A stretch of 61,997 nucleotides of DNA, taken from a virus. The DNA is taken from positions 1 to 61,997 of IMG/VR virus record IMGVR_UViG_3300035661_000067. The stretch is one strand, 5' to 3'. How positions within the stretch are numbered: position 1 is the first letter of the stretch; the number at the start of each line of letters is the position of its first letter. Positions 3,682 to 27,994 of the stretch are shown here, in pieces. Both the position numbers and the translations under genes were made by a program. The notes under the pieces were generated by a model. That model had not been told where the DNA came from, did not search any database, and worked only from the letters and a program-made list of their open reading frames with translations.

Positions 3682-3968
3682 TGGTGGAAATAATCGTTCG
3701 ACTGGAAAACTGCGGCACGTGCCACTGGTGGGATCAGGCGACGAGGCTGACGCCCGAGGGTATCGTGCAAAAGACGCCCGAAGGGGCCTGCCACGGGTCG
3801 CCTCCGGCGCTGCTACTGACGGGCGAATGGAAGCTGCCTTTCACGCCGGCTAGCTTCTTCTGCGCGACATGGAAGTCGATCAGCTACCAGACCATCACCC
3901 TTCCTGCCGCGGAGCCCGCGCCCGCCGCGAAGCCCAAGCGGGTGCGCAAACCCCCGGCCCGGAAATGA
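3678..3968 (+). CDS. small Cys-containing hypothetical protein
   Basis: This is a 96-residue protein with CGTCHWW near the start, further Cys in GACHG and FFCATW, and a basic Ala/Pro/Lys tail (PKRVRKPPARK). The Cys/His pattern suggests a small metal-binding fold. ATGA overlap with the previous gene and a 4-base overlap with the next one place it in a coupled operon. No function recognised. Confidence 0.55.
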   Translation: MMVEIIVRLENCGTCHWWDQATRLTPEGIVQKTPEGACHGSPPALLLTGEWKLPFTPASFFCATWKSISYQTITLPAAEPAPAAKPKRVRKPPARK

Positions 3969-9281: not shown

Positions 9282-9619
9282 TTGAAGAACGCGATGACTT
9301 GATCGTGAAAATAGGTGAGGGCCGAGCCGATCACCGACCCGATCAGCCCAACCGCGAGGAGGACGCCGAACCCGATGGATTGCCAGCGGTGCCACTTCTC
9401 GGTCAGCGGCTTCACCGCGTCCATATCGGCCTTCACTGCGAGCAGGGTAGCCTCCATTTCGGCCATCTTCTTGATCTGCGCCTCTCTCTGTCGGAAGGCT
9501 TCGGCACGGTCAGCGTCAATGGCATCAGTGAGGTTGCCGATCAGTTCCTTCAACGCTTGCATTCCGCCTTCCAGCCTGCCGAGGGACTTGGCTGTTTCGA
9601 GATCCGATGATGCCGTCAT
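9278..9619 (-). CDS. holin-like membrane protein with coiled coil (DUF1515/XhlA-like)
   Basis: The 113 residues form a long charged helix (residues 10-80) followed by one C-terminal membrane segment (IGFGVLLAVGLIGSVIGSALTYF). This layout resembles DUF1515 and XhlA-type proteins found beside endolysins, which act as holins or holin partners. It overlaps the endolysin start by four bases. Together with the two-segment protein at 6662 it gives two holin candidates; which one forms the lesion is unclear. Confidence 0.65.
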   Translation of the reverse strand: MTASSDLETAKSLGRLEGGMQALKELIGNLTDAIDADRAEAFRQREAQIKKMAEMEATLLAVKADMDAVKPLTEKWHRWQSIGFGVLLAVGLIGSVIGSALTYFHDQVIAFFK

Positions 9620-9684: not shown

Positions 9685-12600
9685 TTAGTCCATGATCTGA
9701 GGCGAAAGCCCCGCACGAATTTCAGCATCTAGCCCGGGGATGAGTTCCGCCCCGCCCTGGTTGTTCGCGTGATGCTTCGCCCGCAGCTTCGCGGACGCCA
9801 CAATCCCCTCGCTCGTGATCGGGTAGGAGGGGTGCGCGGCGTTGAAGGCGTCCACCTTGGCCCGAATTTCCGGGGTAATGGCGGCATGGCTCAGGACCGC
9901 CGTGGCGAGTTCCTTCACGATGGCGCTCTTCTCGTCCTGGATCTCCTGCTGCTTGTTGTAGGCCAGGCTGTTCAGTTCGTTCTGCTCCGCGATTTCGGCC
10001 GGCGTGAAGCCCAGGGCCTGCACGATGACCTGCGGGGTGGTCACGGTATCGACCAGAGGATCGCCGTTCTTGGTCGTGGCGCCCTCCATCGCATAGCGGG
10101 CGGCCTTCATCACGTTCCGGGCGGCGACGGGAAGCATCTTCTCGATGCCGCGCTCGTAGTCTCCGTTGCTGATGTCCTGCGCGCCCATCAGCATGTTCTC
10201 GACAAGCGTCGGGGCTGCGCCGACCGACTGCGCGAGCCACTGCTGATACAGGGCCTCACCCTCTGCCGGGCGGCTGTCGTCCCTGAACCATAGGTCGGGC
10301 ATGCCGATGCGGCTGGACAGGCTCAGCCCGGTAACGGCCTGCGGGATGCCATAGAACACGGCGGCCCCCATCTTCTCGCCAAAGACCGAAACCACGTCGC
10401 TCTTGAAGTGATCCTTGACCTCAGATTGGGGTGCGCCGGTCAGAAGGCCCCAGATCATGCAGGCTGCGCCAAACATCCAGACGCCAGAGATACCGGCATG
10501 CAGCATCAACGAAGCGGAAATGCCAAAGAAGGTGCGGCGAGCCTCCTTCCGGGCCTCCGGGCTTTCGCCCCGCGTCATCTGGTGCAGATCCCGGGCCAGG
10601 CGCCACAGCATGTTAATCTGGAAATTTTTCATCGCAGTGACCACGCGCGCCACATTCCCTTGAGTGAGGCGCGGGCGGGCATCATTTTGGTAGTCGAAGT
10701 GCGTCTTCCAAGTCGCTGACATTGCAGCATTAACCGCTGCATCATGATTGCCGCGCACGGTCGGGCCGCCGTTTGCGCCGACCGCAGGGGCTGCGTTGAT
10801 CCGGGCCATACGGTAGGCGGCGAGGAAGGTGATTTCCCGATTCATCCGCTCGGTGTGGTGCAGCATTAAGGAGGCCGCAGCCATGATTTTGCTGCGCCAA
10901 TCCCGGAACTCAGTGCCGTGCGCTTCGATGCCGGCCAGGTCATGGGCGCGGCTCTTGTCGATCAGGCCGCTGGCATAGGCGAACTCCATCGCGGTCTTCT
11001 CGTCGTCTGTCAGGCGCGAAGAGTTGACGGCATGCCCCTTGCCCCGGGTGAAGTCGAGCGATGCCCGCGCGATTTGGGCTGAAGCCTGACGCATGTTCGC
11101 CCCCGGCATGGAGCCAAGGATCGGGATGCCGACAATCGTGGTCTGGCTGATATTCACGATGGCGGTCCCGGGCGAGAAGGCCATGAAGTAGAGGAACACC
11201 GCGCTCGTCGCCAACTGGCTCAGGGCCGAACCCTTGGGCGCCATGGTGCCCTGGTGGCGGCGCATCATTTCCTGCACGATCAGCCCGTTGCGGGTCGGCT
11301 CGCTGCTATTCTTGGCCTCGCGCTCGGCTTCGACAAGCGCATCCTGCAGGTCGAGGGCATAGGACAGCTTCGCAAGCTGGTGCGAACCATGGAAGGCGGC
11401 CTTGCCAAAGGCGCGGAAGGCATCCGACGAGAATCCCGCCGTAGCGTTCCGGTGCAGCCGGTTGCGGCGGATCGACAGTTCCGGCAGGGTTTCAAGCCAC
11501 CGCTGCCAGATCGCATCCATCACCACCTTGGGCGTGTCCACTCCGGCGAGGATCTGCTCGATGTCCGAGACGAAGGTCGGATCGACCATGCCGCGGATCT
11601 CGCTCTCGCCGATCACGCCGGTCTGCGGCTTGATGCCCGTCTCCGCCGCCGTCGCGTTGGCAAATTTGTCCCGCGCCCAGACGCTCTCGAACATATTGAA
11701 GGCCGTGACCTTGCCTTGGGCATTCCGAGTGGTGACGAAGAACTTGCCGAAGCGGGTCAGGGGGAAATAGGGCTTCTCTACCCGGTTGCTCTCGAACATC
11801 TTCCGCAGTGCAAAGGCGCGGGCGCGGGCGCCGTCGCCGTGGTTGCGGCGGGCCTTGTCCAGCCGGGCATTGGCCCGGTCCATGGCCTGGGCGCGCTCGC
11901 CGCCGATCAGGCCGTCATCCTGGATGCGGCGCATTTCATCGGCATGCGCCCGCTCGGCAGACCGAAGGCTGATGTTCATAGCCTTGGCGATGTTGGCGAT
12001 GATCGCCCGCTCGTAAGCCTGGGACATGGCGACATATTCATCGCGGACCTTGTTGAACATATGCTTGAAGGCCCCGGGAAGAGCCCGGTATTTCGGCACA
12101 AGGGCATCATACCGGGCTTTCGCCGCCCGGTCGGCCTGAACGCGCTCGGTCGCCGCCGCCATTTGGCCCGGGGTGCCGGTCTGGTTCTGAACCCGGGCAT
12201 AATCCTCCGGCGATGCCTTCGGCTCATAGGGCTGGCTTGGATCTTGCCCGGCGATGGTCGCCTCGTGCATCAGGTCCATCAGCTTGACGTTGGCGTTCTT
12301 GTTCTGGGACATGATGTAGCGCCAGCGCCGCGCCACCTCATCGGTGCGGGTCCACCACTCCGACCGCAGCTTGTCCATCTTGTCTTTCAGCTTTTGGTAG
12401 TTCTCAGCCGAAGGCATCTTCCGGCCCAACTCGGTGAAGAGCGCCCGGCCCGGTACTGCGGACAGGAGCGTGGAACTGCCCAGAGACATCGCCTGTGTGA
12501 GCAGTTTCGAGAGCATGGTGCGCTCGTATTCCTGCGTGATCGGCCGCCGCATCCGCATCGCCGATGCGACAGATTCCTCGCTGAGGAACCCATAGCCAAA

Positions 12601-15600
12601 GACCTGCTTCTCGCCCTTGACCGCGCGCTCCGCCAGAGAGCCATCGAACAGCTTCTCGAAGATCATGGCTTCATTGATATAGCCGCGGCCCCGCAGCACG
12701 TTGATGATGCCATGAATGATGTTCGTGAACTTGTGGTAGGCGCGGCTCAGCGGCCCGCCCGGGCTGTCCTTGCGGCCGGTAAAGGCCATGTAGCGGTCGG
12801 CGATGACCTCTTCGACCTGCCAGGCATAGGGCAGTCCGTCATATGCCTTCTTGACCCATGCCATGGTTGCCACGTCCATCCGGGCCGCAGATACCAGCGC
12901 CCGCCACTCTTCGGCGGTGAATGCCCCATACTGCGCGCCGTTCCAGATGGTCTGGTCGCGCGCCCAATGCAGCAACTCATGGCGCAGGACTGCCAGCGCC
13001 CCGTGCTTTTGGCCCCATGAGGTCCAGATTTTCCGCTCGGCCCCATAGAACATGCCGTAAATCTCATCACCGGCTTCGGTAATCCAGTGCGGTGCGACAT
13101 TCAGGCGAAGTGCGGCGGCCCCCACGCGCTTCAACTCGGCCAGAAGACGGGCGCGGAGATTGACCTCTTCGGCCTTGGTCATGGGCAACTCGCCCGGAAT
13201 CTCGGCCTCAATAAGCGGGTCGTTTTCTTTGAAGTCGATCCCGCGCTCGGAGAAGTGGTGCGCGCCCCCTTCGCCTTTGCGCGCCTTCGTGCCGGGAGGA
13301 ACGGCCCCGGTGATGGTCCGGGCCTCGTCCTTGTGGGCGCGCGATTCAAAGTTGACGCCGCCGATCGACTGGATCAGCCGCAGAAATTCCTCGAACTTGT
13401 CGGGGTAGATGATCTTCGCCTCGTAGGTCGGCCTCCCAGACCGGCTGTTGAAGTCGCCCACCAGGCTCGTGATCTGCTTGTTCGTCGCATAGGGGCGCCC
13501 GCCCTGCGTGTTCAGGATCACGCTGTAGCGGTTGTTCCGGGCGCCCCAAGAGGACATCGAGTGCGTGATCGTGATGACGGAATCGCTCGTCACCACCATG
13601 GTCTGGACTGGCTTTCCGTCCTTGCCATCCAGGTTCAGGAACGAGATCACCTGTGGGATGGTGCTGAACTGGACCGGCATGTCCCGAAGGGCGGCCTCGG
13701 TATCGAAAGACTTCGGCATGAGGATGCCATCGGACACGGTGCCATCCATGCGGGTGAAGCGCATGATCTGGCCCTTCTCGAAGGCTTTGAAGCCCGCGAC
13801 GAGGTTTCCAGTCAGGATAGTCCGATCCTCGCGCGAAACGGAGGATTGGTTTGCAAAGGCCGCGATGATCGCATGCGGGGAGACGGTCGAAGGCTCGGGC
13901 TGGTAGGCTACATCCTCGGTTTTCCCGGCGATGAGCCGCGACACCGGAACCTCAAACTCCCGCATCGAATCCGCGACGGCTAGCCGCAGGGTCATCTTAG
14001 ACTGTTGGAAGGCGTTACCCTCGGCCCGGCTCATGTCGATGCCCAGCGAGATCGCCGGGATGCGGGTCGTCTTTCCATTACCCTCGTCGCGGATCAGGAA
14101 CGCGCTGGCGCCAGGCTTCCAGGTCAGAGCAAGGCGTTCCTGGTCTTTGAGGATCGAGTGCGCCTCGGCGAGCCGGTCTTCCGCCTTCTTGATGCCAGCA
14201 TTGGCGTCCCGCTTCTGCGCGTCCGTCTTTGCCACCGCGAGGCGGCCTTGCCACATTGCCAGAGAAGCGTTCGCCGTGGCTGTGGCAGCAGGAAACCCGG
14301 CCCGAATGTCGGTCATCTGCTCCAGCGCCCACATCTCGGGCTTCTTCCCGTCGAGGATCTTGGCGATCCGATCCTTGAGTTCCGCCTCGGTGTAGGGCTT
14401 GGCGAGAACGTTCGCTTTGACAATTTCGCTCACGGCCTCGCGCTGGAAGGGCGAGGTGCCGACCGAAGGCGACAGGATGGTCTTCGAGAGGGTTTCAGCT
14501 TCAAGGTTCAGGGTCTTGGCCTCAAGCGTGTTTGTGCCGAGGCGGTCCATTTCCGCGATGATCGCGGTATAGGCGATGTCGAAGTCCTCATAGATTTTCC
14601 GGGCCACGGCATCAGCGACCACAGCGAGGCGACCAGTCAGCCGCGAGGCAAGGCCGGGCTCAGGCTTCTTCCCGTGCGCGAAACCAAGTTCCAGCCCCTG
14701 GTCCACATTCTCGGCGAGCCACTGGTTGACCACGATGTCGCCATAGCGGTTCAGGAAGTCCTTCACGTTCTTCATGGTGACGGCGGAGTCCTTGGCCGCC
14801 GTGGTGTTGGCATTGAGGGATGCCATCTTCCGCATCAGTTGCGCCACCACGCGCTGCTCGATGGCGAGGTCGGACGCCCCGATGGAATAGCGCGGAAGGT
14901 GGATCTGGCCCGTCCGGTGGATGCGGCCGAGCATCTGCATAAACACGTCGATGTTGGCGTCTGGCTGCAGCACCCTCATGTAGCGCGGCTTTCCGTCATT
15001 CCGGGGAGTCGCCGTGGCATGCAGGGAGAACCCAGTCGAGCCCGACGAGTTGATGATGAGCGCATCAAGGGCGCCAGAGTTGTAGCCCGCCATCGCCTTC
15101 GCCTTGAGGGCTTGGCTGTTGGGCATATTTTTCAGCTTGCCGTCATGGATCATCGAGCCGCGCCCGGTGATCTCGCCGACCTTCATGCCCGCCGCTTCCA
15201 GCCCGGCCTTGAGTTTGTCGATCGGGGATGCCGACATGCTGCCCGTGGCGGCGGCCCGGATGGTCCGCTCTGCGTCTTTCAGCGCCCGCAGCGCAGCCTG
15301 CCCGCCATGAGCGACAACCTCGGCGTCGGTGATGTAGTGGTAGGTCACAACCTCCGTCACCTTGTCCTTGAAGCCGATACGGCGCAGGCGCTGCAGGTAG
15401 CGGAGGATGATGTCGTTGAAGGTGATGTTGATCGCATCGCCCGCGCTCAGGCCCAGGTCTTCAGCATACTCGGAAATGATTGAGTCGTTGGTATTCGCCA
15501 GGGCAATGATCGGCTTCTCGCCGTTCTTCCACGCCTCGATCGCATCTTGGATCGCCGCATCAGACTTTGCCGCCAGAAGCACCTGACCCACGATGTTGTG

Positions 15601-18600
15601 GATCATCGAAGAGAAGGTCTTGGAGGTGGCGGACTGCGAGCCTACTGCGCCGCCCTGCCCAACCGCGCCGTGACCGCCCTTCTGGAGGTTCTTGATGTAG
15701 GCAGTCCGCACGTCCTGCATATGCTCTTCATCAGCCATGAAGACTGCCCGCACCGCGCCCAGCGCAGCATGCGTTTCGGCGCTGTTGGTCTTGAGCGTCC
15801 GGGAGTCGATCTTGACGCCGGCATAGGACCGCTCGCGGCGGATATACTGCCCGGCCTCCACCAGAAGGTTTGCGGAGATCTGCTGCAGTGGAACCCCGCC
15901 CTCGCTCAGAAGCCCGGCGAGGTCGCCCGGCACAAGGCTCATATCGGTCTTGAAGTAGAGCGACAGCACGTCAGGGTTCTTGGCAAAGGTCGCCGAGGAA
16001 TAGAGGGTGCCGTGCTTCGACGTCGCCAGCATTTCCCGGAGGATGCGCCCGCGGCTCTTCTTGGTGATGCCGGTTTCCTTGTTGGTCGTCTCGCCGTCGC
16101 CGCCCGCCTCGTGCGCCTCATCCATGATGAACATGGAGTTCTCGGCCAGCCCCATCACCGCCTCTTGGCGCAAGGTCGTGCCGTCACCACCCTCTTGAAG
16201 CTGGCTATAGGTGGTGAATAGGACGGTTTTGCCTTGCGGAAGGCCGAGGCCATCCCGCATATTCTGCATCGCCTTGGCGAGTGCGGGCTTCCCAAGGCTT
16301 TCGACCTTGGGGCTATTCGGGTCGTCCGGGTCCACCCGGAGGATGTTCTTGCCGGTCAGGTCGGTATTGGTGGCGAGGATTTCTGGGATGGAATCGCCCT
16401 CGCCGATGTCCGTCAGGTCGCGGATCATGTCGAGATAGAGCCCGGGGGTCTTGGTAACGAAGATCGGCGTGATGCCGTTCTTGCGCGCATAGCGGATCAT
16501 CCCGGCCACGACGCGGCCCTTCCCGACGCCAGTCTGGTCGCCGATGATGAAGCCCTTGCCGTCCTTCACATTGTCGATCGCCATCGCCAGGGCGTCTATT
16601 TGCTCCGCAGAGAAGCGGCCCTTGCCATCCGGCGCCCCGTTGCCGGTGAGTTCGGCCTCGGAATAGCCCAATTCTTTGGCAACAAAGGTGTCGATCTTGC
16701 CATATTTCTGCTCGATCCGGTCCAGCGCCCGGTTCATCGCATACTGCATATTGACCGGGATCAGCGTTCCGACCGCATAGGCGGCGCCGGAGCGCGGGGT
16801 ATATTGGACCTGGAAGTCCGTCTCCTGCTCGTTGTTCACGCGCTCAGAGGTGTCCCACACGATCTTGGCCGCACCGCTCGCCAGTTCCTGCGCCAGGCGC
16901 GTCAGCTGCCCCATCAGGCGCTGCAGCCCCTCGTTGCTCAGGCCAATGTCCTTGAGGGCCTGCACCAGAGCGCGCATGAGATCCTTGATGCTCGATGCCG
17001 CGTTGCCGAAATGCTTGAGCATCGCGAGGAATTGCGGCTTGGCCCGCTGATAGTCCTCCTCGTCAAACCCAAGGCCGGAGTTCAGCCGGGAGGGGTTGTT
17101 GAGCATGTTCACCAGCCCGGCAAGGCCATCGAGAAAGCCTGCGCCGGTTTCGGTGATGATGTTGCCCGCAGCGTCCCGGATCAGCGGCTTTTGCGCCGGA
17201 TCTTTCGGGGGCTCGTTCGGCTTGTCTTTCAGCTTGTCCTTGGGCGGCTTTTTGTCCTTGGGCTTGTTGGCCTTTTCTTCCTGCTCCGCAACCCAGGCCC
17301 CAGCTTCCTCCAGCAGGGTCGCATTGGAATTGGCGTGATAGCTGGAAGCATCGACCGAGGCGAACATGGCCCAAGGTATGCCTGCCGGGTAAACCCCCAG
17401 CCGAACGGACCCGGGCTGCACGAAAACGCCAGCCTCCACACCCTTCGGCAGCGCGGCGCGCAGAGCTGCCAGCGCGCCGCGCTGTGCCTCGATCAGCTTG
17501 AATCTCTCGTAGCGATTGGCCTTTGCGGCGAGGTCCTTGGGGTCTTGGTCGAGAAGATCCTGATTTCCGCCTAGAGCCTTGGCGGCTTTCTTGGCGCCCG
17601 CATCATCCTTGGAGGTGAACGGGTTGTCGTCCGGCGCAGCCAGGGCATCCGGGGGCGGCGGCTCGTTCGGAGGCGCACCAGCGCCACCGGCCTCCGGCTC
17701 GATGCCGAGGTCAGAGAAGATGTCGTTGAGAAGGTCTTGGGCGTCCTGATCGCTCAGGGCCCCAGAGCCAGGAGGAAGCTGTCCAGCGTCTCCGCCTGCA
17801 GGGCGTCCACCCGTTCCTGCGGATCTGCTTGTGCTGCCAGAGCCTCCGGCTTGATCGCTGCCGGAACCGTCCGGTTGCCCGACATTTCCCGGAGCCTGTC
17901 CAGGCTGTGCCACAGGGTTTCCCCCAGGCCCTGCAGTTCCGCCTCCTTGACCAGCGGAATCCCCAAATCCCGGAGCCGACTGATCGCCTCCTGCGGGTCG
18001 GCCTTCTCCACCAGCCGGTCGATTCGGCTTTCCAGCGCCGCCCTGTGCCGCGCCGGGGTCATCGGCGTTGTCGGGTTGACCAGCACTGTTCCCACTCCCG
18101 CCAAGCTGCCTGCGGGTGTCCAGGCTACGAGGTCCATTCAATCCTCCTTCAAGGTCGGTCCAACTCGTGATGATCGGCGGCGCCTCCGACATCGGAAGCA
18201 CCAGTTTCGATTCGCCGCGGCCCTCGATCACTATCACATCGACGGGCCATTGCGCGCCTTGCCGTGCATAGAGCGATCCAGCGACAGTAAAGTGCCCTAC
18301 AACGTTGTATTGGTCGTAAATCGTGTTCCAAAAGCGCCGCTGCCTGGCCTGGGAATAGGCTTGCGCCCGGTCGCTTCCGGTCAAGGTCGGGCTCTGGCCG
18401 CCGACGATCAGCACTGCGCGCCCATCCTTTTTCATGGACTGCAGCGCCCGCAGGGCGATGGCGTGGTCGATCTCCGTGGTCTGGCCGCCGCCCGCTAGCC
18501 CGGGGGCGTTGAATCGGGTTTCATTCCCCGCATCATCCATCACCTTGCCGAAGGGCGGGTTAGCGATGACGACATCCACAGAGGCCGGGCCCTGATGCTC

Positions 18601-21600
18601 CATCGCATCGCCGACGCTGATCTTGGTCATAAAGCTGCCCAGCGCATAGCTAGCGCGGGCCGCCCGGGCGGGGTCCAGTTCGTTCGCGGTCGTCTTTGCC
18701 GGGTCCGCGCCGATCAAGAGCATGCCGTTGCCCACGGTCGGCTCATAGACGGTTGTGTCCTCAGTGATGCCGGCCAGTTGCGAGGCCAGATAGGCCAGTG
18801 GCGCCGGGGTCGAATATGCCTGATTCCGCAGGCTCGTGGAGGTGCGTTGGGCCAGAAGCGGCTGGCGCGCATAGAGATCCACCAGCGCGGTATAGGTTTC
18901 GGCCGGGCTCTTGCCTTGGCTGATGATGTGGCGCGCAGTGATGACCACGGCGGCCTCAAGCGCCTCTTCCACCAGCTTGTATTCCTCGTCGGCGAGGGGC
19001 CGATCCAGAGCCTCTGCCGCCACCTTCCGGGCGACGAGGATGTTGTGGAAACCGTCACCATCGACGAGGCGCTTGGAGAAGGTGTCGATCAGCGTCTGGA
19101 CCATCTTCGGGACGGTCGGGTTGGCATCCGCAGGCTTGGGTGCAACTGCCTCCAGGAGGGCCTGCTCGGCCTCCATTTGCGCGATCTTCCACTTGATGTA
19201 GGGGTAGGTCACTTTCTTCGGGAAAGCAGCCGTCCGGGTGTTATAGCTGTTCCCCTTCGGCCCCTTGAACGTGACGATGGCCTTGTTGTTGCCGTCCGGG
19301 AGCAGCCGCCAGCCCTCGTCCAGCTTGTCGTGGATGAACTCCTGCGGGGTCTGCATCTTCCCATCGACACGGATGCCATAGAGCAGGGCGCCATCAAACT
19401 CATAAGACATCGGGCCATAGATCGCAGTGAAGGCGTCATAATCGGCCTTTAGGGCGGCCTTCTTGTCTTCGGCGGCCCGTGCTTCCTCCATGACCCGCTT
19501 GGTATCGGCCTCAAATTTGGCCTGATCCAGCGCAGCCTGGGGCGACATCAGATAGGCATCGGTTTCCCGCTTCCCATCGGCAATGTCGTCTTCCATGACC
19601 TCGGGCTTGCCGCCAGCGGTTGAGACGCCAACCATCATCGGCAGCATCGCGCCACGGTCCTCGATCGACACGATCTTCCGCTCGCCCTTGGGCGAGGCCC
19701 AGGTATCGCCGATCTTCATGCCGGTTAGGGTTTCGGTGCGCTTGGGCATGTCCGGCGCGGCCTTACCGTCCGGGTTCAGGAGTTTGCCGACCTCGCGCAT
19801 GACCTCGCGCGCCGCGGCGATGGTGCCGCTCTTCTGCAGTTCCTTGGCCGCGGGGTAGGCGCCGGACGCGGTGTCGATGTTGACGAGATAGTCATTCGAC
19901 ATCCCATAGGTCTGCAGGGCGAGCGTGAAGATCGCCTCGAAGGCCCGCGCCGTCTCTTCGATGGTCGTGCCCCAATAGGCGACCTTCCGATATGTATCGA
20001 AGGCGATATTGCGCTGGTGCCACGGTCCCTGTTTCAGGGTCAGGGCGAAGTGCTGCAGCGCCTTCGCCAGCCCATCGCCCAGGCCCTTGTTGTTGGTCTC
20101 GCCCCGGTCGGAGGCAAAGTCGGTGCGCTGCTTATCCTTGGGCTTGGCCGCCGCCGATACGCCGCCTTTGCTGGCCGCCTCGCGCGCCAGATAGTTGTCG
20201 AGAGCATGCACCCACTCATGGGCCAGCGAGCCCGAGCCGTTGCCCGCCGTGAGGTTGATGACGACCTCAAGCTGCTCATAGTGGGCCGCCGCCGCGCCCC
20301 TGCCACCCCGGCCCCGCGATGCGAAGCCGATTCCGAGGGTCTTGCCATCAACAGGAAGAACGGCAATCGCCTGCGAGGGGATGCCCAGCATGCCGGCCAG
20401 ATCCATGAAGGCATCATAGGCCCGGTTCAGGTCCAACTGCCGCTGGTCGTTGTTCCGGGATGCCCCAAACTCAACGCGCAGACCGAAGGCTTTCTCAAAG
20501 TCAGCGGTCGAGACATTACCCTCGCGGCGCTTCATGCCGCTGCGCTCGCGGTTCTCCAGCCGGTGTTCGCGCGGCCCGACACGGAGCGCCCGCACCTTGT
20601 TCCGAAGTTCCTCTTCGTTGGCGGTGATGTAGTCCCGGGCGGCCTGATAGGTTTCAAACCCGCCGACGATAATCGGGGAGTTCTCGTCGTTCGAAGACCA
20701 GATGCCATAGGTCTTTGTGGTGGAAATGCCCTTGGCGTCCCTCTCGAAGGTTTCAGACTTCACTGAGAGGCGGATCTCGCGCTCCTTTGGCACGGTCGTA
20801 TCGCCGCCTTCGCCTTCGGGCTTCATCGCCTCATCGAGCGCCTGTTGGTCAATGATCTTCCGCACCTCAGCGAGGGCACGGGCCTGCACCTCGGCCATCG
20901 TGTCGATGTAGAGCCCGCGCCCGTTGCTGTAGTGCGGCCCATTGGCGAGGAAATAGGTGTCCGGTTCGCGGGCGCGGACCTTGGTTTTCCCGTCATCGCT
21001 GGGAACGAGGACATAAGACTTCGTGATCGGGTCCATCTTATACTGGATCACCCGATTCAGCTGGTAGGTCGCAAGCAACTCCTGCTCTTGCGGGGTTGCG
21101 CCATCGCGGACCAGGCCAAAGCTGAGAAGGCCGGAGCCAGTGTTGTCCTCGTAGTCCTTGATATGATTGCGGATGTCGGCATCGAGATCGGGGCCATCCC
21201 AGACTTGCCGGGTGCCATCCAAAAGATCCTTCGCCAGCTTCCGCGCGGCGCTGACATGGTTGACCCACCGAGCCAGCTTGTATTTGTTCGTCCGGCCCTG
21301 CGGTTTTAGCGGGATCTGGCGACGGATCGAGAGGATCACCGCGATGGTGTCATGTATGGCCCCGCCTTGGGCCAGCGCCGCTGCATCAATCGGCGGGAAG
21401 GTCTTGCCCAGCGGGTTCGTGGCGATGTCGAGATCTGCCCCGATCGCCCGGACGAACTGCCCGAAGAGGTGCTTGCGAGCGCCCTCGATCTTGCCGCCGA
21501 AGTCATCAATCTTCTCCGGGGGCTCTTCGGGCTTCGGGTTCGCGTCTTGCGGCGCATCAACCGCGGGTGGGTCGATGATTACGGGCGGTTTTTCAGGCTC

Positions 21601-24600
21601 GCCGCCTTCTGGCGCAACTGCCGGACCTCCGCTGGGTTTTTCTCGGTTTCCGCCATCGCCCGAAGTGTTTCCGCCATCGCCTTGCGGTGCAGAGGGGCCG
21701 CCTGTGGGCTTGTCGAAGAGCCCGCCTTGTCCTTTTGTGCCATCTTGGGCTCCTTTTGCCATTTTCAGCACATCGCGCGGGTTCGCGGTATGCCCGAACA
21801 TATCGGCCTCGGCCTGGGTCTTGCCCATTTCCTGAACGTAGAAGGCCAGCGCCGATCCGATGCGCTCGCGGCTGGCAGGCTTGGTCCATTTCACGACATC
21901 GTTGAAGAGCAGGGATAGGAAGTCCTTGGCCTCATCCGACACGGTGCCGCCCGCGGCGAACATATCGGTCTGGTTAACGAAATCCGTGATGGGCCGGCCA
22001 GCGCGCCGCGCCCGGTCCACAAGCTGCACGGCCTCCATCAGGGCCGGGGTCATATCGGCATGGGGCGAGATCACCCCTTCCGCTGCCTGCGCCCGCATCT
22101 TGGCCCACTCGCCCGCAACATCGGTCAGCGCGCCGCCGATGGCCTTGATGTTGGTGTCCGATGCCTCCATCAGCGTCTTGATGAGGTCCGGGCTTCCATA
22201 GGCTTTTGCCAGCAGGGCCGCTTGGATGCGGAGAAGGCCAGCCTGGCTGATCGAGCCATCCGAGCCGATCATCCCGATCGCATCGTTCTCGCCGATCACG
22301 TCCTTGATGATCTGCCGCACGAAGTCCCGGTTGCCCGCGGAATCGAGATCGCCGCCACGATAGAGGGCGAGGTGCGCGGCCTGGATCTGCCCGGCATCCG
22401 CCATCGCGGTTTCCGAGACGGTCATGCCAAGGTTCGTGCGCTCGTTGTATTCCTTGGTCGCCGCGATGCGGGTCGCCGTGTCCATTTCCGTTGTGCGGAG
22501 GCGGATCAGCACCGGGTTCTTCATCGACTTGTGGACCGGATAGCCCTTGGCCTTGAGCCATGCGCGATAGGCTTCGGCGCTCTTGCCGTTCTCGACATAG
22601 GCGCGGCGTAGGGCCATCATGCGCCCGTTGCCGCTTTCGACCACGCCATCCTTGGAAACGATCGGGGCGCCGGGGCCAGCTTCGGGGCCTTCGCCCATGA
22701 ACTCTGGGTTCAGGTTCGTTGCCATGCGCTGCACCTGGAGCATGGCAGAGGGGTGCGATCGGTCGCGCGGCTGTAGTTCGGACGGATAGGCTTTGTTGAC
22801 CCGGCCATCATCGTCGTTCGAGATCACCAGATCATCGAGCGACACCACGCCATAATCGACCTTGACCACGCGCCCCTGCGGCGTCGTCACCTTGTCGTGG
22901 CTGTGAAGGTTGAAGTGCTGGATGCCCGGCTTCTTGGCCGCATCGCCCTCGGTGTAGTTGCTGGAAATCGGCTTCTTCCATGCCGGGGTGTGCGGCAGCA
23001 GGGCGCGCAACTCCGCAACTTCCATGGTCTTGATACCGCCGACACGGGCCTCGCCCTTGCCATCGCTGAACCCGGCCTCATAGACCTTGAGTGCTTCGCT
23101 GGCGCTGTCGAACCCCATCAGGATCTTGTGTTCATCGAACTTGCCGGTCGCCAGATCGTTCTGATCGACAACGACAACCAGCTTCGATTCGGGGTTGGGG
23201 CCGACATAGACATCGACGTGGTCTTTGTCTTTGCCAACGGTGCCCTTGATGTAGCCATAGTCGGCAGCGAGCGTGACGCTCCATTCCTTGCCGTCCGGCG
23301 AGGTGCCCTTCCGGGTGCCGGCCTTCTCGGTTTCGATGCTGATGTCCAGCCCGTGAACCTTGATATGCTTCATCTGGTAGTTGCCCGCCTCGGCCTGTGC
23401 CGGGGTCGGGTTTGGGTTCGCGTGATTGTCGTCGGCGGCAGGCTTCTCGCCCATGCGCTCGCGCGCCTGGGGGTCGTTTGCCATGAAGAAGGCATAGCTG
23501 AACCCAAAAGGCGTGGTGGAGCGCGCCTCTTTGCCCAGAGGATCGGTGCCGCGCAGCTTGGACTGCATCTTGGACCCTTCAACCGGGTCCACATTGGCGG
23601 TCGGCAGATCCGTCTGGAACATGCCGTAAAGCTGGGTGCGCTTGGTGTAGGGGTCGCCGAAGTTGTGCGGGTGGAAGCGCACGGTCGGGGCAGGCATGCC
23701 CGCCTTTTCCTCGATGCGGCCGACAGGGTTTTCAAGGACATGGAAGCCGGTCGGGTTCGATTCCTCGATGATCCGGCGTGTCTCGTTCACCAGCATGATG
23801 TTGTATTCCAGAGGCGACTTCGCCCCGGATGCCAGCGCAGCCTCGCCGAAGACCTTCACCAGGGCCTCGGGGGTCTGGATGTCGTGCAGCGGCTCCCACC
23901 AGCGCGCGCCCGCGCCGGAGAAGGTGGTGCAGGGTGTGGCCGCCAGAACACCATAGACCTCGTAGCCTTCGGCCCGGCGCTCCGCAATTTGGTCGTTGAT
24001 CCACTGATCGAGCCCGATCTTCGAGCCGATCTTGATGTCGTGCTGGATCACCTGATACCCAGCGTCCCGCCACGGCTGCGACCACTGGCCGCTGTAGTCG
24101 AACAGGCTGATGATGATCTTGCCGGCGTTCTTGCCGGTCTTCCCGATGTCCTTGGCGACCTGCTTCCATGCCGCCAGTTTGGCGTCGGCCTCGGCCTGCG
24201 GGATATAGCCATCCTTGGCCGCCTTGGCCTCGATGCTGACCGTTCCCTTGCGTTCCGGGAACACGTCCTTGGGGTCCATGTGCGGCACATCGGCCTCGGC
24301 CATGGGCTCGCCTTTGGGCGCACCGTTCACCGTGTCGGTGTTGACGCCGTTCGACTCGAAGTTCTGGAGGAAGTCCATGGCATCGGCGACCGCAGAGCCA
24401 TCGCTGTCAAACTCGCCCGTGCCCTCGTCAAACTTGGGCTCCGGCAGATCCCCGGTCTTCGCCGCGCGGGCCTCTTCGATCAGGCGCTTGGCGATGTCTT
24501 CGGCTTCCCGGATCAGGGTCGCCTCTTGGTTCCACTCCTTGGTGGTCTTGTGCTGTCCCTGGGCATCGAAGTTGTCGATCGCGTGGCCCTTGGAGCGCAT

Positions 24601-27588
24601 CTGCGCCTCGGCGCGGCGCGTGGCGGCATCCAACTCGCCCACCAGGTGGCCGAGGGTGCTGTCATTGCGGTATTTGGCGAGCGTCTTGCGCTCTTGGTCC
24701 GTGAGGGCATGCTCCAGCCGGTAGGGCTTGTCGGCCTCGGCGGGTGGGACGGGCGCTTTCGGCGGGGCCTTCGGGCCGCCTTCGCCCACCGGGGGCGCGG
24801 CGGGAGGCGGCGGCGTGTTGGTCTGGGGCTTCTTCGGGGCTTCCGCAGCGGGGGGCGGGGTTTCGGGCTCCAGATAGGGCTCGACCTGCTTGAGAAGGTT
24901 CGCGGCGGCTTTGCGAACCCGGTCGCCAGCGATGGAATCGGCGGGATGGATGGTCAGGTTGCGACGAAGGCCCTCGGCGGCCGACTTGACCGCCTCTTCC
25001 GGGGTGGAGAAATACTGCCGGTGCGCGCTTCCGCCAGAGCCTCCGCTGTGGCCGGGCAGATCCCAATTCAGGTTTGAGGTCCAGCCCTTGCCTTCATGGT
25101 GGATGGGCGTGAGGGTGACGTGCGCCTTGCCTGCCTTGTCTGCAGTAAACTTGATCGGGGCCACGTTCTCCGGCGTCGGCGCGGCGATGGTCGCCGGGTC
25201 GGGGCGCTTGGCGCTCTGCTGATCTGGGGGCAGCTTGTCATGGGCATCCATCACCAGCTTTGCCAGAGCCTCGGGCGGCATGGTGGTCAACTGCTCATGC
25301 GTGACCGAGATATGGGTTTTCCCGCGGCCCGCCGTGGCAATGATCGCGCCGATTTGGTCCGTGGAATCGCGCCCGCCCGAAACCTGCCAGTCCTCGGGGA
25401 GGTGCTTCGCCAGGTTGCGAATCCCAACGGCATGGGGCTTGGTGTCGTCGGGCTTGATGTAGTGGTCGGCGCCAAAACCGGGCTTTACTGCCGGTGCTGC
25501 AGGCTCGCCTCCGGGACCGGCGTCAGGAGCAGGCTGGCCTGCAGGATTGCCCTGGTCACTCTGCGGCGCGGCAGGTCCGCCAGTGTCGGGTTGACCCGTG
25601 CTGCCTTGATCCACCGAAGCACCGCCTTGCGGCGCTTGCGGCTTAGGTGCCCCATCGCCTCCAACAGGAGCAGGGCCTGCTTCATTTCCCGGATCTTGTG
25701 TTTCATCAGGAGCCTTCGCGGGTTTCGGGGGGGACTCGGTCTGAGGCTTGACGTTGGTGAAGTCCGGCTTTGGCCGAGAGGTCGAGCCAGAGCCCGGCTT
25801 CGGGGGCAGGGGTTGGACCATGAAGCCGCCATCGACAGCGATGATCTGGAAGGCATCGCCAGTCAGGCCATTGGCCTTAGCGCCCTTAGCCGCCTGCTTG
25901 GCAGTCTCGAAGGGTATGCCGCCCTTCTTGCCGAACGGGGGCGGGGGCTCGGGGGCCTTGGTTTCGCCCGGGGCGGAGCCCGGAACGTGGAATGTCATGG
26001 TCTGCATGTCGGCATGCGAGATGATGCTGTCCTTGCCATCATCGAACCGGAATTGCGGGCCGTGGGGCGTGTTCTTCACGAACTGGACGTTGACGTTCGT
26101 GCCATCAGGCATACGCGCGGTGAATCGCTCGCCGGTCTTGGCGTCATCCCCCGTTTCGGGGTGCTTGAAGTTCATGTCGGGCGCAGCACCAGCCGCGCCG
26201 CCCATGGGGCCAGATCCAGCGCCGGGGCCTGCGGACGGGCCTGCGGACGGGCCTGCGCCAGGCGCAGCGCCGGGGCCGCCAGAAGGTTGCGCGCCGGGGG
26301 TAGAGGGGCTACCACCCGGCAGCGCGCCCCCAGGTGCAGCGGGGGGAGGTGCCGTGCCGGGGGGAGGGGTTTGGGGTTGCGCTTCGCCCTTGCGGGTCAG
26401 GGCGCTCACGCCAGCACCAAGGCCGGAAATGCCAACCGTGGCAAGCATGGTCTGGACGATGGTATCCCGGATTGCCGCAGGCTGTTCCGCGAGGAAGTCC
26501 TTCATGGGCTTGTCGGGGTTCAGCGAAGCATAGGCATTCATGTTCTGGAACAGGGTCGTGGCGACCTCTGTCGGCACTTCCGTCATAAGCTGGTGCATCA
26601 GGATCTTGCCAAAGCCAGACCCTTCCACGATGTCGCCAAGCAGCTTGTGGACCGGGATTTTCTCGAACAGGCCCTCAGCCAGTGCATCTACGCCGCCATA
26701 GAGCAGCGATGCCGCATCAGACTTGCCCGCCTTCTCGGCCTCGCCGACAGATTGGCCGCCTTGTTGGATCATCCCGGGGGCAAGAAAGGTCGCAGCGACG
26801 GCCGGCGTGGCCGCGCCGCCAGACAGGATCGAGGCAAGGATGCCGGGTGCCATGGTCCCGATCGACTGCGCCGCACCCTGAACTTGCTCGCCGATCCATG
26901 TGTCGGGCTTGCCAGCGACCCACTCCTTGGTCCTGCCGGCACCTGCGGCCTGCTTCTGCAGCCATGTCTTGGCGTCGTCCAGCCCTGCAAGGCCGGCCAT
27001 CGCACCCATGATATTCCACGAGGCTTCGCTGAACGCAGGGGCTGCCGATGCGATGCCGCGCGGGACCGTCCCCAACGCATCCATCGCATCGCCCACAAAG
27101 CCCTTCGGGGGCGGGGGCGGGCGACCGCCTGGGTTCAGTTCATCGGCCAGTTGGTAAGCGCGCGACATGATCTGCGAGGTCAGCGATGGATCTGCGTTCG
27201 GGCCGAGAACCTTGGCAATGGCCTCTTCGGGTTTCATCCCGCCCTTGAGAAGCGGAGAAAGGACCGATGCAGCATGCGTAGCTGCCTGCAGGGCTTCATC
27301 CTTGTTCGATGCCCCGCCGACCTCGCCGATGGACATCAGGAGGTTGATCGGAACGCCGCTCTGGCTGCTGAGTGCGCCCATAGCGTTCAGGTGGGGGTCG
27401 TTCTGGGGCATGCCTGTCGCTGCAGCACCGCCCAGCGATGAAGGGCCGGTCGGCTGCGGCTGTTGCGCGCTCGGAGTGGTCTGGGGGGCTTGGGGGGGGG
27501 CAACACCGTTGCGGGCGTCGATCTTGGCCTGCTCTTCGGCAAGCGCCGCATCCACCGGATTGCGGCTCGTGTAATCAGTCCCAGCCAC
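9685..27588 (-). CDS. giant polyvalent protein (DarB/DdrB-like), 5,967 residues
   Basis: One uninterrupted ORF starts at GTG 27588 after AAAAGGGG. Regions in order: weak lysozyme-like segment (66-150); hydrophobic patches (240-400); C5-methylase-like domain with TPCTTFS, Cys 1220 (1140-1340); InPase-like polyvalent domain with DYGYIKG and DHVDVYVG (1404-1536); DdrB/ParB-like domain with SGNGR (1652-1656); LPD1 with HEWVH (2457-2461); N6-methylase with NPPF (3010-3013); Strawberry-notch-like SF2 helicase with GVGKG (about 3690), DEAH (3823) and GRIHRTG (about 4219); second metallopeptidase-like HELLH (4870-4874); PLxRFG motif (about 5275); LPD38-like membrane-rich C-terminus. Low-complexity Pro/Gly linkers separate the domains. 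Polyvalent proteins are known to be packaged and injected with DNA to counter host defence. The position between internal-virion genes and lysis fits that. Domain calls come from motifs read by eye. Confidence 0.93.
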   Translation of the reverse strand: MAGTDYTSRNPVDAALAEEQAKIDARNGVAPPQAPQTTPSAQQPQPTGPSSLGGAAATGMPQNDPHLNAMGALSSQSGVPINLLMSIGEVGGASNKDEALQAATHAASVLSPLLKGGMKPEEAIAKVLGPNADPSLTSQIMSRAYQLADELNPGGRPPPPPKGFVGDAMDALGTVPRGIASAAPAFSEASWNIMGAMAGLAGLDDAKTWLQKQAAGAGRTKEWVAGKPDTWIGEQVQGAAQSIGTMAPGILASILSGGAATPAVAATFLAPGMIQQGGQSVGEAEKAGKSDAASLLYGGVDALAEGLFEKIPVHKLLGDIVEGSGFGKILMHQLMTEVPTEVATTLFQNMNAYASLNPDKPMKDFLAEQPAAIRDTIVQTMLATVGISGLGAGVSALTRKGEAQPQTPPPGTAPPPAAPGGALPGGSPSTPGAQPSGGPGAAPGAGPSAGPSAGPGAGSGPMGGAAGAAPDMNFKHPETGDDAKTGERFTARMPDGTNVNVQFVKNTPHGPQFRFDDGKDSIISHADMQTMTFHVPGSAPGETKAPEPPPPFGKKGGIPFETAKQAAKGAKANGLTGDAFQIIAVDGGFMVQPLPPKPGSGSTSRPKPDFTNVKPQTESPPKPAKAPDETQDPGNEAGPAPVGGDGAPKPQAPQGGASVDQGSTGQPDTGGPAAPQSDQGNPAGQPAPDAGPGGEPAAPAVKPGFGADHYIKPDDTKPHAVGIRNLAKHLPEDWQVSGGRDSTDQIGAIIATAGRGKTHISVTHEQLTTMPPEALAKLVMDAHDKLPPDQQSAKRPDPATIAAPTPENVAPIKFTADKAGKAHVTLTPIHHEGKGWTSNLNWDLPGHSGGSGGSAHRQYFSTPEEAVKSAAEGLRRNLTIHPADSIAGDRVRKAAANLLKQVEPYLEPETPPPAAEAPKKPQTNTPPPPAAPPVGEGGPKAPPKAPVPPAEADKPYRLEHALTDQERKTLAKYRNDSTLGHLVGELDAATRRAEAQMRSKGHAIDNFDAQGQHKTTKEWNQEATLIREAEDIAKRLIEEARAAKTGDLPEPKFDEGTGEFDSDGSAVADAMDFLQNFESNGVNTDTVNGAPKGEPMAEADVPHMDPKDVFPERKGTVSIEAKAAKDGYIPQAEADAKLAAWKQVAKDIGKTGKNAGKIIISLFDYSGQWSQPWRDAGYQVIQHDIKIGSKIGLDQWINDQIAERRAEGYEVYGVLAATPCTTFSGAGARWWEPLHDIQTPEALVKVFGEAALASGAKSPLEYNIMLVNETRRIIEESNPTGFHVLENPVGRIEEKAGMPAPTVRFHPHNFGDPYTKRTQLYGMFQTDLPTANVDPVEGSKMQSKLRGTDPLGKEARSTTPFGFSYAFFMANDPQARERMGEKPAADDNHANPNPTPAQAEAGNYQMKHIKVHGLDISIETEKAGTRKGTSPDGKEWSVTLAADYGYIKGTVGKDKDHVDVYVGPNPESKLVVVVDQNDLATGKFDEHKILMGFDSASEALKVYEAGFSDGKGEARVGGIKTMEVAELRALLPHTPAWKKPISSNYTEGDAAKKPGIQHFNLHSHDKVTTPQGRVVKVDYGVVSLDDLVISNDDDGRVNKAYPSELQPRDRSHPSAMLQVQRMATNLNPEFMGEGPEAGPGAPIVSKDGVVESGNGRMMALRRAYVENGKSAEAYRAWLKAKGYPVHKSMKNPVLIRLRTTEMDTATRIAATKEYNERTNLGMTVSETAMADAGQIQAAHLALYRGGDLDSAGNRDFVRQIIKDVIGENDAIGMIGSDGSISQAGLLRIQAALLAKAYGSPDLIKTLMEASDTNIKAIGGALTDVAGEWAKMRAQAAEGVISPHADMTPALMEAVQLVDRARRAGRPITDFVNQTDMFAAGGTVSDEAKDFLSLLFNDVVKWTKPASRERIGSALAFYVQEMGKTQAEADMFGHTANPRDVLKMAKGAQDGTKGQGGLFDKPTGGPSAPQGDGGNTSGDGGNREKPSGGPAVAPEGGEPEKPPVIIDPPAVDAPQDANPKPEEPPEKIDDFGGKIEGARKHLFGQFVRAIGADLDIATNPLGKTFPPIDAAALAQGGAIHDTIAVILSIRRQIPLKPQGRTNKYKLARWVNHVSAARKLAKDLLDGTRQVWDGPDLDADIRNHIKDYEDNTGSGLLSFGLVRDGATPQEQELLATYQLNRVIQYKMDPITKSYVLVPSDDGKTKVRAREPDTYFLANGPHYSNGRGLYIDTMAEVQARALAEVRKIIDQQALDEAMKPEGEGGDTTVPKEREIRLSVKSETFERDAKGISTTKTYGIWSSNDENSPIIVGGFETYQAARDYITANEEELRNKVRALRVGPREHRLENRERSGMKRREGNVSTADFEKAFGLRVEFGASRNNDQRQLDLNRAYDAFMDLAGMLGIPSQAIAVLPVDGKTLGIGFASRGRGGRGAAAAHYEQLEVVINLTAGNGSGSLAHEWVHALDNYLAREAASKGGVSAAAKPKDKQRTDFASDRGETNNKGLGDGLAKALQHFALTLKQGPWHQRNIAFDTYRKVAYWGTTIEETARAFEAIFTLALQTYGMSNDYLVNIDTASGAYPAAKELQKSGTIAAAREVMREVGKLLNPDGKAAPDMPKRTETLTGMKIGDTWASPKGERKIVSIEDRGAMLPMMVGVSTAGGKPEVMEDDIADGKRETDAYLMSPQAALDQAKFEADTKRVMEEARAAEDKKAALKADYDAFTAIYGPMSYEFDGALLYGIRVDGKMQTPQEFIHDKLDEGWRLLPDGNNKAIVTFKGPKGNSYNTRTAAFPKKVTYPYIKWKIAQMEAEQALLEAVAPKPADANPTVPKMVQTLIDTFSKRLVDGDGFHNILVARKVAAEALDRPLADEEYKLVEEALEAAVVITARHIISQGKSPAETYTALVDLYARQPLLAQRTSTSLRNQAYSTPAPLAYLASQLAGITEDTTVYEPTVGNGMLLIGADPAKTTANELDPARAARASYALGSFMTKISVGDAMEHQGPASVDVVIANPPFGKVMDDAGNETRFNAPGLAGGGQTTEIDHAIALRALQSMKKDGRAVLIVGGQSPTLTGSDRAQAYSQARQRRFWNTIYDQYNVVGHFTVAGSLYARQGAQWPVDVIVIEGRGESKLVLPMSEAPPIITSWTDLEGGLNGPRSLDTRRQLGGSGNSAGQPDNADDPGAAQGGAGKPNRPAGGEGRPAGGDQSAPGFGDSAGQGGGTAGPGGNPVAQPGQAPGNVGQPDGSGSDQAGGSGSTSRSAGTGGRPAGGDAGQLPPGSGALSDQDAQDLLNDIFSDLGIEPEAGGAGAPPNEPPPPDALAAPDDNPFTSKDDAGAKKAAKALGGNQDLLDQDPKDLAAKANRYERFKLIEAQRGALAALRAALPKGVEAGVFVQPGSVRLGVYPAGIPWAMFASVDASSYHANSNATLLEEAGAWVAEQEEKANKPKDKKPPKDKLKDKPNEPPKDPAQKPLIRDAAGNIITETGAGFLDGLAGLVNMLNNPSRLNSGLGFDEEDYQRAKPQFLAMLKHFGNAASSIKDLMRALVQALKDIGLSNEGLQRLMGQLTRLAQELASGAAKIVWDTSERVNNEQETDFQVQYTPRSGAAYAVGTLIPVNMQYAMNRALDRIEQKYGKIDTFVAKELGYSEAELTGNGAPDGKGRFSAEQIDALAMAIDNVKDGKGFIIGDQTGVGKGRVVAGMIRYARKNGITPIFVTKTPGLYLDMIRDLTDIGEGDSIPEILATNTDLTGKNILRVDPDDPNSPKVESLGKPALAKAMQNMRDGLGLPQGKTVLFTTYSQLQEGGDGTTLRQEAVMGLAENSMFIMDEAHEAGGDGETTNKETGITKKSRGRILREMLATSKHGTLYSSATFAKNPDVLSLYFKTDMSLVPGDLAGLLSEGGVPLQQISANLLVEAGQYIRRERSYAGVKIDSRTLKTNSAETHAALGAVRAVFMADEEHMQDVRTAYIKNLQKGGHGAVGQGGAVGSQSATSKTFSSMIHNIVGQVLLAAKSDAAIQDAIEAWKNGEKPIIALANTNDSIISEYAEDLGLSAGDAINITFNDIILRYLQRLRRIGFKDKVTEVVTYHYITDAEVVAHGGQAALRALKDAERTIRAAATGSMSASPIDKLKAGLEAAGMKVGEITGRGSMIHDGKLKNMPNSQALKAKAMAGYNSGALDALIINSSGSTGFSLHATATPRNDGKPRYMRVLQPDANIDVFMQMLGRIHRTGQIHLPRYSIGASDLAIEQRVVAQLMRKMASLNANTTAAKDSAVTMKNVKDFLNRYGDIVVNQWLAENVDQGLELGFAHGKKPEPGLASRLTGRLAVVADAVARKIYEDFDIAYTAIIAEMDRLGTNTLEAKTLNLEAETLSKTILSPSVGTSPFQREAVSEIVKANVLAKPYTEAELKDRIAKILDGKKPEMWALEQMTDIRAGFPAATATANASLAMWQGRLAVAKTDAQKRDANAGIKKAEDRLAEAHSILKDQERLALTWKPGASAFLIRDEGNGKTTRIPAISLGIDMSRAEGNAFQQSKMTLRLAVADSMREFEVPVSRLIAGKTEDVAYQPEPSTVSPHAIIAAFANQSSVSREDRTILTGNLVAGFKAFEKGQIMRFTRMDGTVSDGILMPKSFDTEAALRDMPVQFSTIPQVISFLNLDGKDGKPVQTMVVTSDSVITITHSMSSWGARNNRYSVILNTQGGRPYATNKQITSLVGDFNSRSGRPTYEAKIIYPDKFEEFLRLIQSIGGVNFESRAHKDEARTITGAVPPGTKARKGEGGAHHFSERGIDFKENDPLIEAEIPGELPMTKAEEVNLRARLLAELKRVGAAALRLNVAPHWITEAGDEIYGMFYGAERKIWTSWGQKHGALAVLRHELLHWARDQTIWNGAQYGAFTAEEWRALVSAARMDVATMAWVKKAYDGLPYAWQVEEVIADRYMAFTGRKDSPGGPLSRAYHKFTNIIHGIINVLRGRGYINEAMIFEKLFDGSLAERAVKGEKQVFGYGFLSEESVASAMRMRRPITQEYERTMLSKLLTQAMSLGSSTLLSAVPGRALFTELGRKMPSAENYQKLKDKMDKLRSEWWTRTDEVARRWRYIMSQNKNANVKLMDLMHEATIAGQDPSQPYEPKASPEDYARVQNQTGTPGQMAAATERVQADRAAKARYDALVPKYRALPGAFKHMFNKVRDEYVAMSQAYERAIIANIAKAMNISLRSAERAHADEMRRIQDDGLIGGERAQAMDRANARLDKARRNHGDGARARAFALRKMFESNRVEKPYFPLTRFGKFFVTTRNAQGKVTAFNMFESVWARDKFANATAAETGIKPQTGVIGESEIRGMVDPTFVSDIEQILAGVDTPKVVMDAIWQRWLETLPELSIRRNRLHRNATAGFSSDAFRAFGKAAFHGSHQLAKLSYALDLQDALVEAEREAKNSSEPTRNGLIVQEMMRRHQGTMAPKGSALSQLATSAVFLYFMAFSPGTAIVNISQTTIVGIPILGSMPGANMRQASAQIARASLDFTRGKGHAVNSSRLTDDEKTAMEFAYASGLIDKSRAHDLAGIEAHGTEFRDWRSKIMAAASLMLHHTERMNREITFLAAYRMARINAAPAVGANGGPTVRGNHDAAVNAAMSATWKTHFDYQNDARPRLTQGNVARVVTAMKNFQINMLWRLARDLHQMTRGESPEARKEARRTFFGISASLMLHAGISGVWMFGAACMIWGLLTGAPQSEVKDHFKSDVVSVFGEKMGAAVFYGIPQAVTGLSLSSRIGMPDLWFRDDSRPAEGEALYQQWLAQSVGAAPTLVENMLMGAQDISNGDYERGIEKMLPVAARNVMKAARYAMEGATTKNGDPLVDTVTTPQVIVQALGFTPAEIAEQNELNSLAYNKQQEIQDEKSAIVKELATAVLSHAAITPEIRAKVDAFNAAHPSYPITSEGIVASAKLRAKHHANNQGGAELIPGLDAEIRAGLSPQIMD

Positions 27589-27920: not shown

Positions 27921-27994
27921 TGGTGGCGCGGGATGGAATCGAACCACCGACCTATGGGTTATGAGCCCACCGGACAACCTGTCCTACGCGCGCC
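27921..27994 (-). tRNA. tRNA-Met (CAT)
   Basis: The minus strand folds as a cloverleaf: acceptor GGCGCG with CGCGCC, D arm GGAC/GTCC with a very short AGGTT loop, anticodon arm GTGGG-CTCATAA-CCCAT, variable AGGTC, T arm GGTGG-TTCGATT-CCATC, and an encoded ACCA end. The anticodon is CAT. The three stacked G-C pairs next to the anticodon loop and the AGGTC variable loop are initiator-like, but G1-C72 is paired, as in elongators. The seventh acceptor pair is mismatched and the total is 74 bases. A CAT anticodon could also belong to a lysidine-modified tRNA-Ile. Confidence 0.8.

Follow-up and report, generated by a model that had tools for sequence, protein, structure and literature searches.

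The window analysed here is a virus record of 61,997 nt, the ends of which (1-135 and 61863-61997) overlap by 135 bp with one mismatch. This overlap suggests a near-complete, possibly circularly permuted genome; the record is therefore close to the whole genome, and a single gene takes up 28.9% of it. The gene runs on the minus strand as one unbroken frame of 5,967 codons from 27588 down to 9685, with the stretch AAAAGGGG about 8 nt 5' of its GTG start. The original prediction, which gave no strand, had described an uninterrupted 17.9-kb frame of 5,967 residues occupying about 29% of the genome, and both the intact frame and the proportion hold. Megablast of known phages gave no match. The giant gene and its surroundings are as follows.

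48018-49682: terminase
43916-46330: portal
41449-42543: major head protein
36686-38320: internal virion protein
34099-35607: tail fibre
32268-32741: acetyltransferase
30848-32275: virion structural gene
30015-30851, minus strand: lysozyme-like gene among the virion genes (endolysin family phrog_90, E 1e-13; weak match to 'pilot protein for DNA ejection')
28116-30005, minus strand: virion structural gene directly upstream of the giant (phrog_9667)
27921-27994: tRNA-Met (cat), in the interval separating the giant from the structural gene at 28116-30005
9685..27588, minus strand: giant polyvalent (DarB-like) gene, 5,967 aa, 639 kDa, GTG start at 27588
8646-9395, minus strand: endolysin (N-acetylmuramidase) downstream of the giant (PF11860, E 1e-48)

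The giant gene is flanked by virion genes upstream and by lysis genes, including the endolysin, downstream, in agreement with the position originally proposed for it; such a genomic association with late packaging and virion genes is a further mark of polyvalent proteins according to Iyer et al. (2017). The order of the acetyltransferase, the two virion structural genes and the giant is shared with phages PEp14, Skulduggery, LASTA and Parlo, and the wider succession of internal virion protein, acetyltransferase, virion structural genes, giant and endolysin is PEp14-like. A homologue of the structural gene at 28116-30005 adjoins the giant in most relatives, and the lysozyme-like gene, two genes upstream of the giant, has a homologue only in locus L041 among the loci compared. 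No tyrosine integrase (PF00589) was found in the window (1-61997), although both PEp14 and Atu_ph08 have an annotated integrase. Judging from its kin, the window phage would have podovirus morphology.

Third-position GC, taken in blocks of 300 codons, stays between 0.64 and 0.87 over the entire giant frame without a break. The longest opposite-strand reading frame within the gene reaches only 781 aa, so that a frame of 5,967 aa greatly exceeds what chance would give, even in GC-rich DNA. Plus-strand reading frames up to this length inside the gene (25096-27441) are expected for GC-rich coding DNA.

Domain content of the giant protein

Profiles from Pfam, PHROGs and NCBIfam support at least nine domains of disparate activity in this one polypeptide, the criterion for polyvalent proteins used by Iyer et al. 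(2017). From the N-terminus to the C-terminus the following features were recognised.

27529..27573, minus strand, residues 6-20: N-terminal peptide YTSRNPVDAALAEEQ, candidate capsid-targeting signal (shared motif)
27133..27408, minus strand, residues 61-152: eroded transglycosylase (SLT) domain, catalytic segment deleted (hhalign)
26389..27096, minus strand, residues 165-400: Ala/Gly-rich helical segment (composition and alignment; low model confidence)
24289..26388, minus strand, residues 401-1100: Pro/Gly/Ala-rich linker region (composition)
23440..24135, minus strand, residues 1152-1383: C5-methylase-like domain (phrog_757 DNA methyltransferase, E 1e-31)
23002..23400, minus strand, residues 1397-1529: InPase domain with DKDHVD (PF18823, E 2e-46)
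22495..22878, minus strand, residues 1571-1698: DdrB-like ParB domain with SGNGR (PF18763, E 6e-31; phrog_5143, E 2e-98)
20488..20718, minus strand, residues 2291-2367: LPD5 (PF18799, E 4e-10)
19828..20544, minus strand, residues 2349-2587: zincin-like HEWVHALD region (CLCA_X-like) plus LPD1 (NF041907, PF18796)
18403..18816, minus strand, residues 2925-3062: N6-adenine methylase, NPPF at 3010 (PF02384, E 1e-4, above the cut-off)
16879..17877, minus strand, residues 3238-3570: methylase-helicase insert (alignment; folded part missing from five close kin)
14704..16620, minus strand, residues 3657-4295: Strawberry-notch-type SF2 helicase with GVGKG, DEAH, SAT and GRIHRTGQ (PF13872, PF13871)
12769..13155, minus strand, residues 4812-4940: zincin-like metallopeptidase region with HELLH and EE (invariant residues)
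11893..12504, minus strand, residues 5029-5232: LPD39 (PF18858, E 6e-50)
9742..11772, minus strand, residues 5273-5949: tail-700 / PLxRFG domain (NF032893, E 1e-193)

Nearly all the domains named in the original prediction were found by these profile searches, i.e. the C5-like, InPase, DdrB-ParB, LPD1, N6-methylase, Strawberry-notch and PLxRFG domains. The proposed LPD38 was not among them, as no profile match to it was present in the giant at E 0.1; LPD39 and the tail-700 domain are there instead, and LPD5 and LPD39 extend the original list. The supposed 'LPD1 HEWVH' separates into two elements, both present: the HEWVH at 2457 lies about 70 aa ahead of the Pfam LPD1 match (residues 2531-2586, PF18796, E 4e-9) and within the CLCA_X match (2349-2587, NF041907, E 4e-26, under the profile's own 260-bit cut-off). 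Its HEWVHALD agrees with the published description of phage-type metallopeptidases, in which an aspartate follows three residues past HExxH (PMC5512222). The proposed HELLH peptidase (4870) has no Pfam profile match, but H4870, E4871, H4874, E4926 and E4927 are invariant in 9-10 relatives.

Among the remaining domains, the C5-like domain carries TPCTTF (1218-1223), ENPVG and DPYTKRT, which are non-canonical motifs; the region is 43% identical to part of a phage 8P protein scored as PF00145, and gave nothing meaningful against PDB sequences. The InPase residues D1454, D1459, D1485 and E1486 are conserved in 26 sequences, and the N6 methylase is 41-47% identical in relatives. For LPD5, no sufficiently long matches were available among relatives for a conservation tally. 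The N6 methylase is followed by an SF2 helicase of the Strawberry-notch rather than the SNF2 type, its halves matching AAA_34 (3657-3936, PF13872, E 1e-18) and Helicase_C_4 (4135-4295, PF13871, E 2e-15), and the insert between the two (about 3238-3570) has weak matches in L041, L113 and L075. The C-terminal domain, with PLTRFG at 5276, scores 645 bits against a cut-off of 100. Relatives retain the active-site residues in the InPase, N6-methylase, helicase and HELLH regions. Profiles of the methylase-helicase and HELLH-LPD39 regions gave nothing meaningful against PDB sequences. Structure prediction by region was partly informative: AlphaFold was confident only for the N-terminal helical domain (residues 61-152) and parts of the zincin-LPD39 piece, and Foldseek with these models returned no fold match at E <= 0.001, so the SLT and zincin assignments are not fold-based.

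The N-terminus deserves separate consideration. A motif, [NS]P[LVM][DEQ], occurs near the N-terminus in 11 of the 21 proteins examined (the giant and 10 of 20 relatives), compared with a rate of 0.4% in 30-aa windows from the rest of these proteins; as the sequences are related and several starts were assumed, these occurrences are not independent events. Beyond the first 20 or so residues that bear the motif, the next thousand are largely unalignable between relatives. Residues 61-152, modelled with AF2 pLDDT mostly >90, align with the SLT region of PEp14-type giants with an hhalign score of 53.6 (E 2e-8; <=12.6 in 40 shuffles), across a gap of about 30 residues in which the catalytic glutamate and the GLMQ segment are gone. 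The same catalytic loss is seen in the other aligned members of the alphaproteobacterial type, and by its sequence this wall-hydrolase domain of the giant is probably catalytically dead. The loss of the transglycosylase active site and the candidate targeting motif are the two details that look new. For the adjoining Ala/Gly-rich segment (165-400) a membrane-interacting role is only a guess, since a hydropathy scan of the N-terminal segment gave no strong transmembrane helix.

Relatives and modular architecture

The best-scoring large family is phrog_10089, 'DarB-like antirestriction' (4,647 aa), with E 3e-228, and tblastn aligned about 920 aa of the giant, at 36-41% identity, with proteins annotated as DarB-like in PEp14, Skulduggery, Atu_ph08, LASTA and Parlo, in line with the DarB/DdrB-type assignment made at the outset. 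Matches in bacterial genomes came from Paracoccus, Sediminimonas, Falsiroseomonas, Rhodospirillaceae, Rhodospirillales, Rhizobiales/Hyphomicrobiales, Sphingomonas, Thalassospira, Rubellimicrobium and Azospirillum, and from two MAGs of other or unclear label; the named isolates among them are all Alphaproteobacteria. The C-terminal module order in one frame is common to relatives from IMG/VR and GTDB genomes, and the last ~2,400 aa are colinear with single frames in L013, L014, L020 and others. Two loci, L016 and L113, share one contig, and the giant frame exits both of its ends, which suggests a circular or permuted genome. In Sinorhizobium phage PBC5 (L119), the annotation gives two DarB-like genes, separated by a gap, in place of one giant.

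The size of the protein had been called exceptional, a claim that we do not uphold. Modular proteins of 3.7-5.4 kaa are the rule in Bcep22/PBC5/PEp14-type phages, known examples being those of JC1 (4,515 aa), Atu_ph08 (4,877 aa), PEp14 (4,914 aa), Mwe-JY07 (4,985 aa) and 8P (5,145 aa, from coordinates). The 65 distinct closed frames bearing the helicase have a median length of 4,100 aa, counted from stop to stop, and the four longest measure 5,129, 5,285, 5,419 and 6,124 aa, and Iyer et al. (2017) reported a polyvalent protein of 12,242 aa (PMC5512222). The 6,124-aa frame (L031, 3794-22165, Thalassospira sp. MCCC 1A01428) combines an N6 methylase with a helicase, but neither the LPD39 nor the PLxRFG segment of the window protein matches it, and its Pfam matches differ; it is probably a different kind of polyvalent element. 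The LPD39 clade is represented by 11 distinct closed frames of 4,237-5,410 aa, so the window protein is the largest member seen of this clade.

The combination of domains, likewise called exceptional, has a precedent in part, as C5-like and N6-type methylases and a helicase occur together in 8P; none of the other loci examined showed exactly the set of the window. L014, L015, L017, L019, L020 and Atu_ph08 have InPase but neither ParB nor LPD5/LPD1; L022 has it together with ParB and also keeps the order InPase-ParB-N6. LPD5 and LPD1 are paired in L013 and L038, and are joined by InPase in L041, L113 and L075, the order in L041 being N-terminal domain-InPase-LPD5-LPD1-N6-insert-helicase. Of the giants gathered through homology to the core, that of the window alone has the C5-like domain; elsewhere it is present in 8P and in the 2,110-aa protein L009, which contains ParB as well. 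The domain set of the window protein is thus the union of modules that occur piecemeal in its kin. The N-terminal half is modular, and the exchange of enzyme modules among relatives leaves the position of the gene unchanged.

Proposed role of the protein

We consider it likely, chiefly by analogy with characterised homologues, that the giant is a DarB-like polyvalent protein that is made late, packaged into the head via its extreme N-terminus and ejected with the DNA, which it would protect and prepare in the first minutes of infection; delivery into the host had also been suggested in the original prediction. In phage P1, DarB is a head protein of which the first 30 aa are enough to send a reporter to the capsid (PMC9024508), and by the same principle the N-terminal peptide of the giant would direct the chain to the prohead. 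Packaging is directly supported for a homologue, gp69 of Burkholderia phage JC1 (4,515 aa), which was detected in purified virions by mass spectrometry (PMC9144972). As the N-terminal wall hydrolase of the giant is probably dead, the neighbouring lysozyme-like protein (30015-30851) may open the wall in its place. The N6-methylase and the SF2 translocase would then act as a pair that modifies the incoming genome against restriction, in the manner of DarB, and the C5-like methylase probably helps in this modification. In the weakest steps of the model, the ParB and InPase domains would have nucleic acid or nucleotides as their targets, and cleavage by the zincin-like domains may release functional parts of the chain; these roles follow the proposals of Iyer et al. 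The passage of a 639-kDa chain via a podovirus portal is a point against this explanation, as are the non-canonical motifs of the C5-like domain, its lack of a PDB sequence match and the absence of fold matches for the structure models.

A further suggestion can be made only tentatively, namely that [NS]P[LVM][DEQ]xxL is the capsid-targeting signal of the family, retained despite free exchange of the following thousand residues, and could thereby load very large cargo, and that in the alphaproteobacterial type the transglycosylase has been disabled and wall opening has passed to separate virion genes such as that at 30015-30851. The stronger notion that every relative with an eroded SLT domain has a separate lysozyme gene was abandoned, as it holds only for the window and L041.

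The giant could instead be mainly an internal virion or ejection-conduit component, its size dictated by structural needs and its enzyme domains secondary. It does sit among internal virion genes, the 5,145-aa counterpart in 8P is annotated as a 'structural protein', and the conserved C-terminal PLxRFG/tail-700 domain is not known to have an enzyme activity. We regard this reading as unlikely, because the active-site motifs of several of the enzymes are retained across relatives and because the exchange of enzyme modules at a constant gene position fits cargo better than a scaffold. Methylases encoded beside late genes would equally be explained if the giant worked at a late stage inside the cell that produces it, either by methylating progeny DNA ahead of packaging or by targeting the host, with no injection; this is more doubtful still, given that the JC1 homologue is in the virion and that the N-terminal wall-hydrolase domains of many relatives, live or eroded, fit a protein that enters a cell. 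Least credible of all is an assembly artefact fusing separate genes, to which the large size and the two-gene annotation in PBC5 might point, as the frame shows no stop or break and high third-position GC throughout, its last ~2,400 aa and its InPase-ParB-N6 and N-terminal-to-helicase orders recur in relatives, and kin have the same module order in single frames of 4.2-5.4 kaa.

The giant is a real, intact protein whose family and mode of action have both been described before, and it extends the known class of virion-delivered anti-restriction proteins by a very large member rich in domains. It shows a pattern of growth in which a C-terminal core and an N-terminal peptide are conserved and cargo modules are inserted between them. 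Two types of methylase in one chain could widen protection against restriction systems, and the N-terminal motif, should it prove to be a capsid-targeting signal, would provide a testable delivery tag for large proteins.

Comparison with known systems

By homology to the DarB-like C-terminal core (LPD39 and PLxRFG), the giant belongs to the known 'massive DarB-like' proteins of Bcep22/PBC5/PEp14-type podoviruses, and comparison with other podoviruses, in matching gene order and in module order within single frames, speaks against a fusion error. JC1 gp69 is likewise a giant DarB-like protein (22% of the JC1 genome) encoded by a late gene that ends the virion module, and has an N-terminal peptide followed by a transglycosylase-like region; the window protein is one third larger and its transglycosylase is eroded, whereas that of JC1 is virion-proven.

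The proteins of PEp14 (4,914 aa) and Skulduggery (3,695 aa) are 40% and 39% identical to that of the window over the C-terminal 920 aa, share its flanking virion genes and downstream endolysin or lysozyme, and carry SPLEKVL and SPLQKVL as the N-terminal motif. In contrast to the window, PEp14 has an intact SLT domain, an SNF2 helicase, an Eco57I-type methylase and LPD37, and no InPase, ParB, LPD5/LPD1 or C5-like domain was found in it. Agrobacterium phage Atu_ph08 (gp21, 4,877 aa) and Sinorhizobium phage PBC5 have alphaproteobacterial hosts, InPase and a 37% identical C-terminus. Atu_ph08 gp21 shares the N6-type methylase, but its helicase is of the SNF2 clade, its N-terminus bears Hydrolase_2/M15 wall enzymes and its C5 methylase is a separate gene (gp7).

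The structural protein of Pseudomonas phage 8P_023 (5,145 aa), which adjoins a holin and a lysozyme, likewise joins C5 and N6-type methylases and a helicase in one giant, although its helicase is SNF2-type, it has LPD23, and no InPase or ParB was found in its first 4,259 aa. Paracoccus onchidii L022 (4,738 aa) combines in one frame an eroded N-terminus, InPase, ParB, N6 methylase, Strawberry-notch-type helicase, HELLH, LPD39 and the C-terminal domain, whereas no C5-like domain, LPD5/LPD1 or insert was found in it. Finally, while phage P1 divides these functions among several proteins, together with DarA, Hdf, DdrA and Ulx, it shares with the window the methylase-helicase pair and N-terminal capsid targeting of DarB, which protects phage DNA in cis (PMC5512222), and the ParB and peptidase of DdrB.
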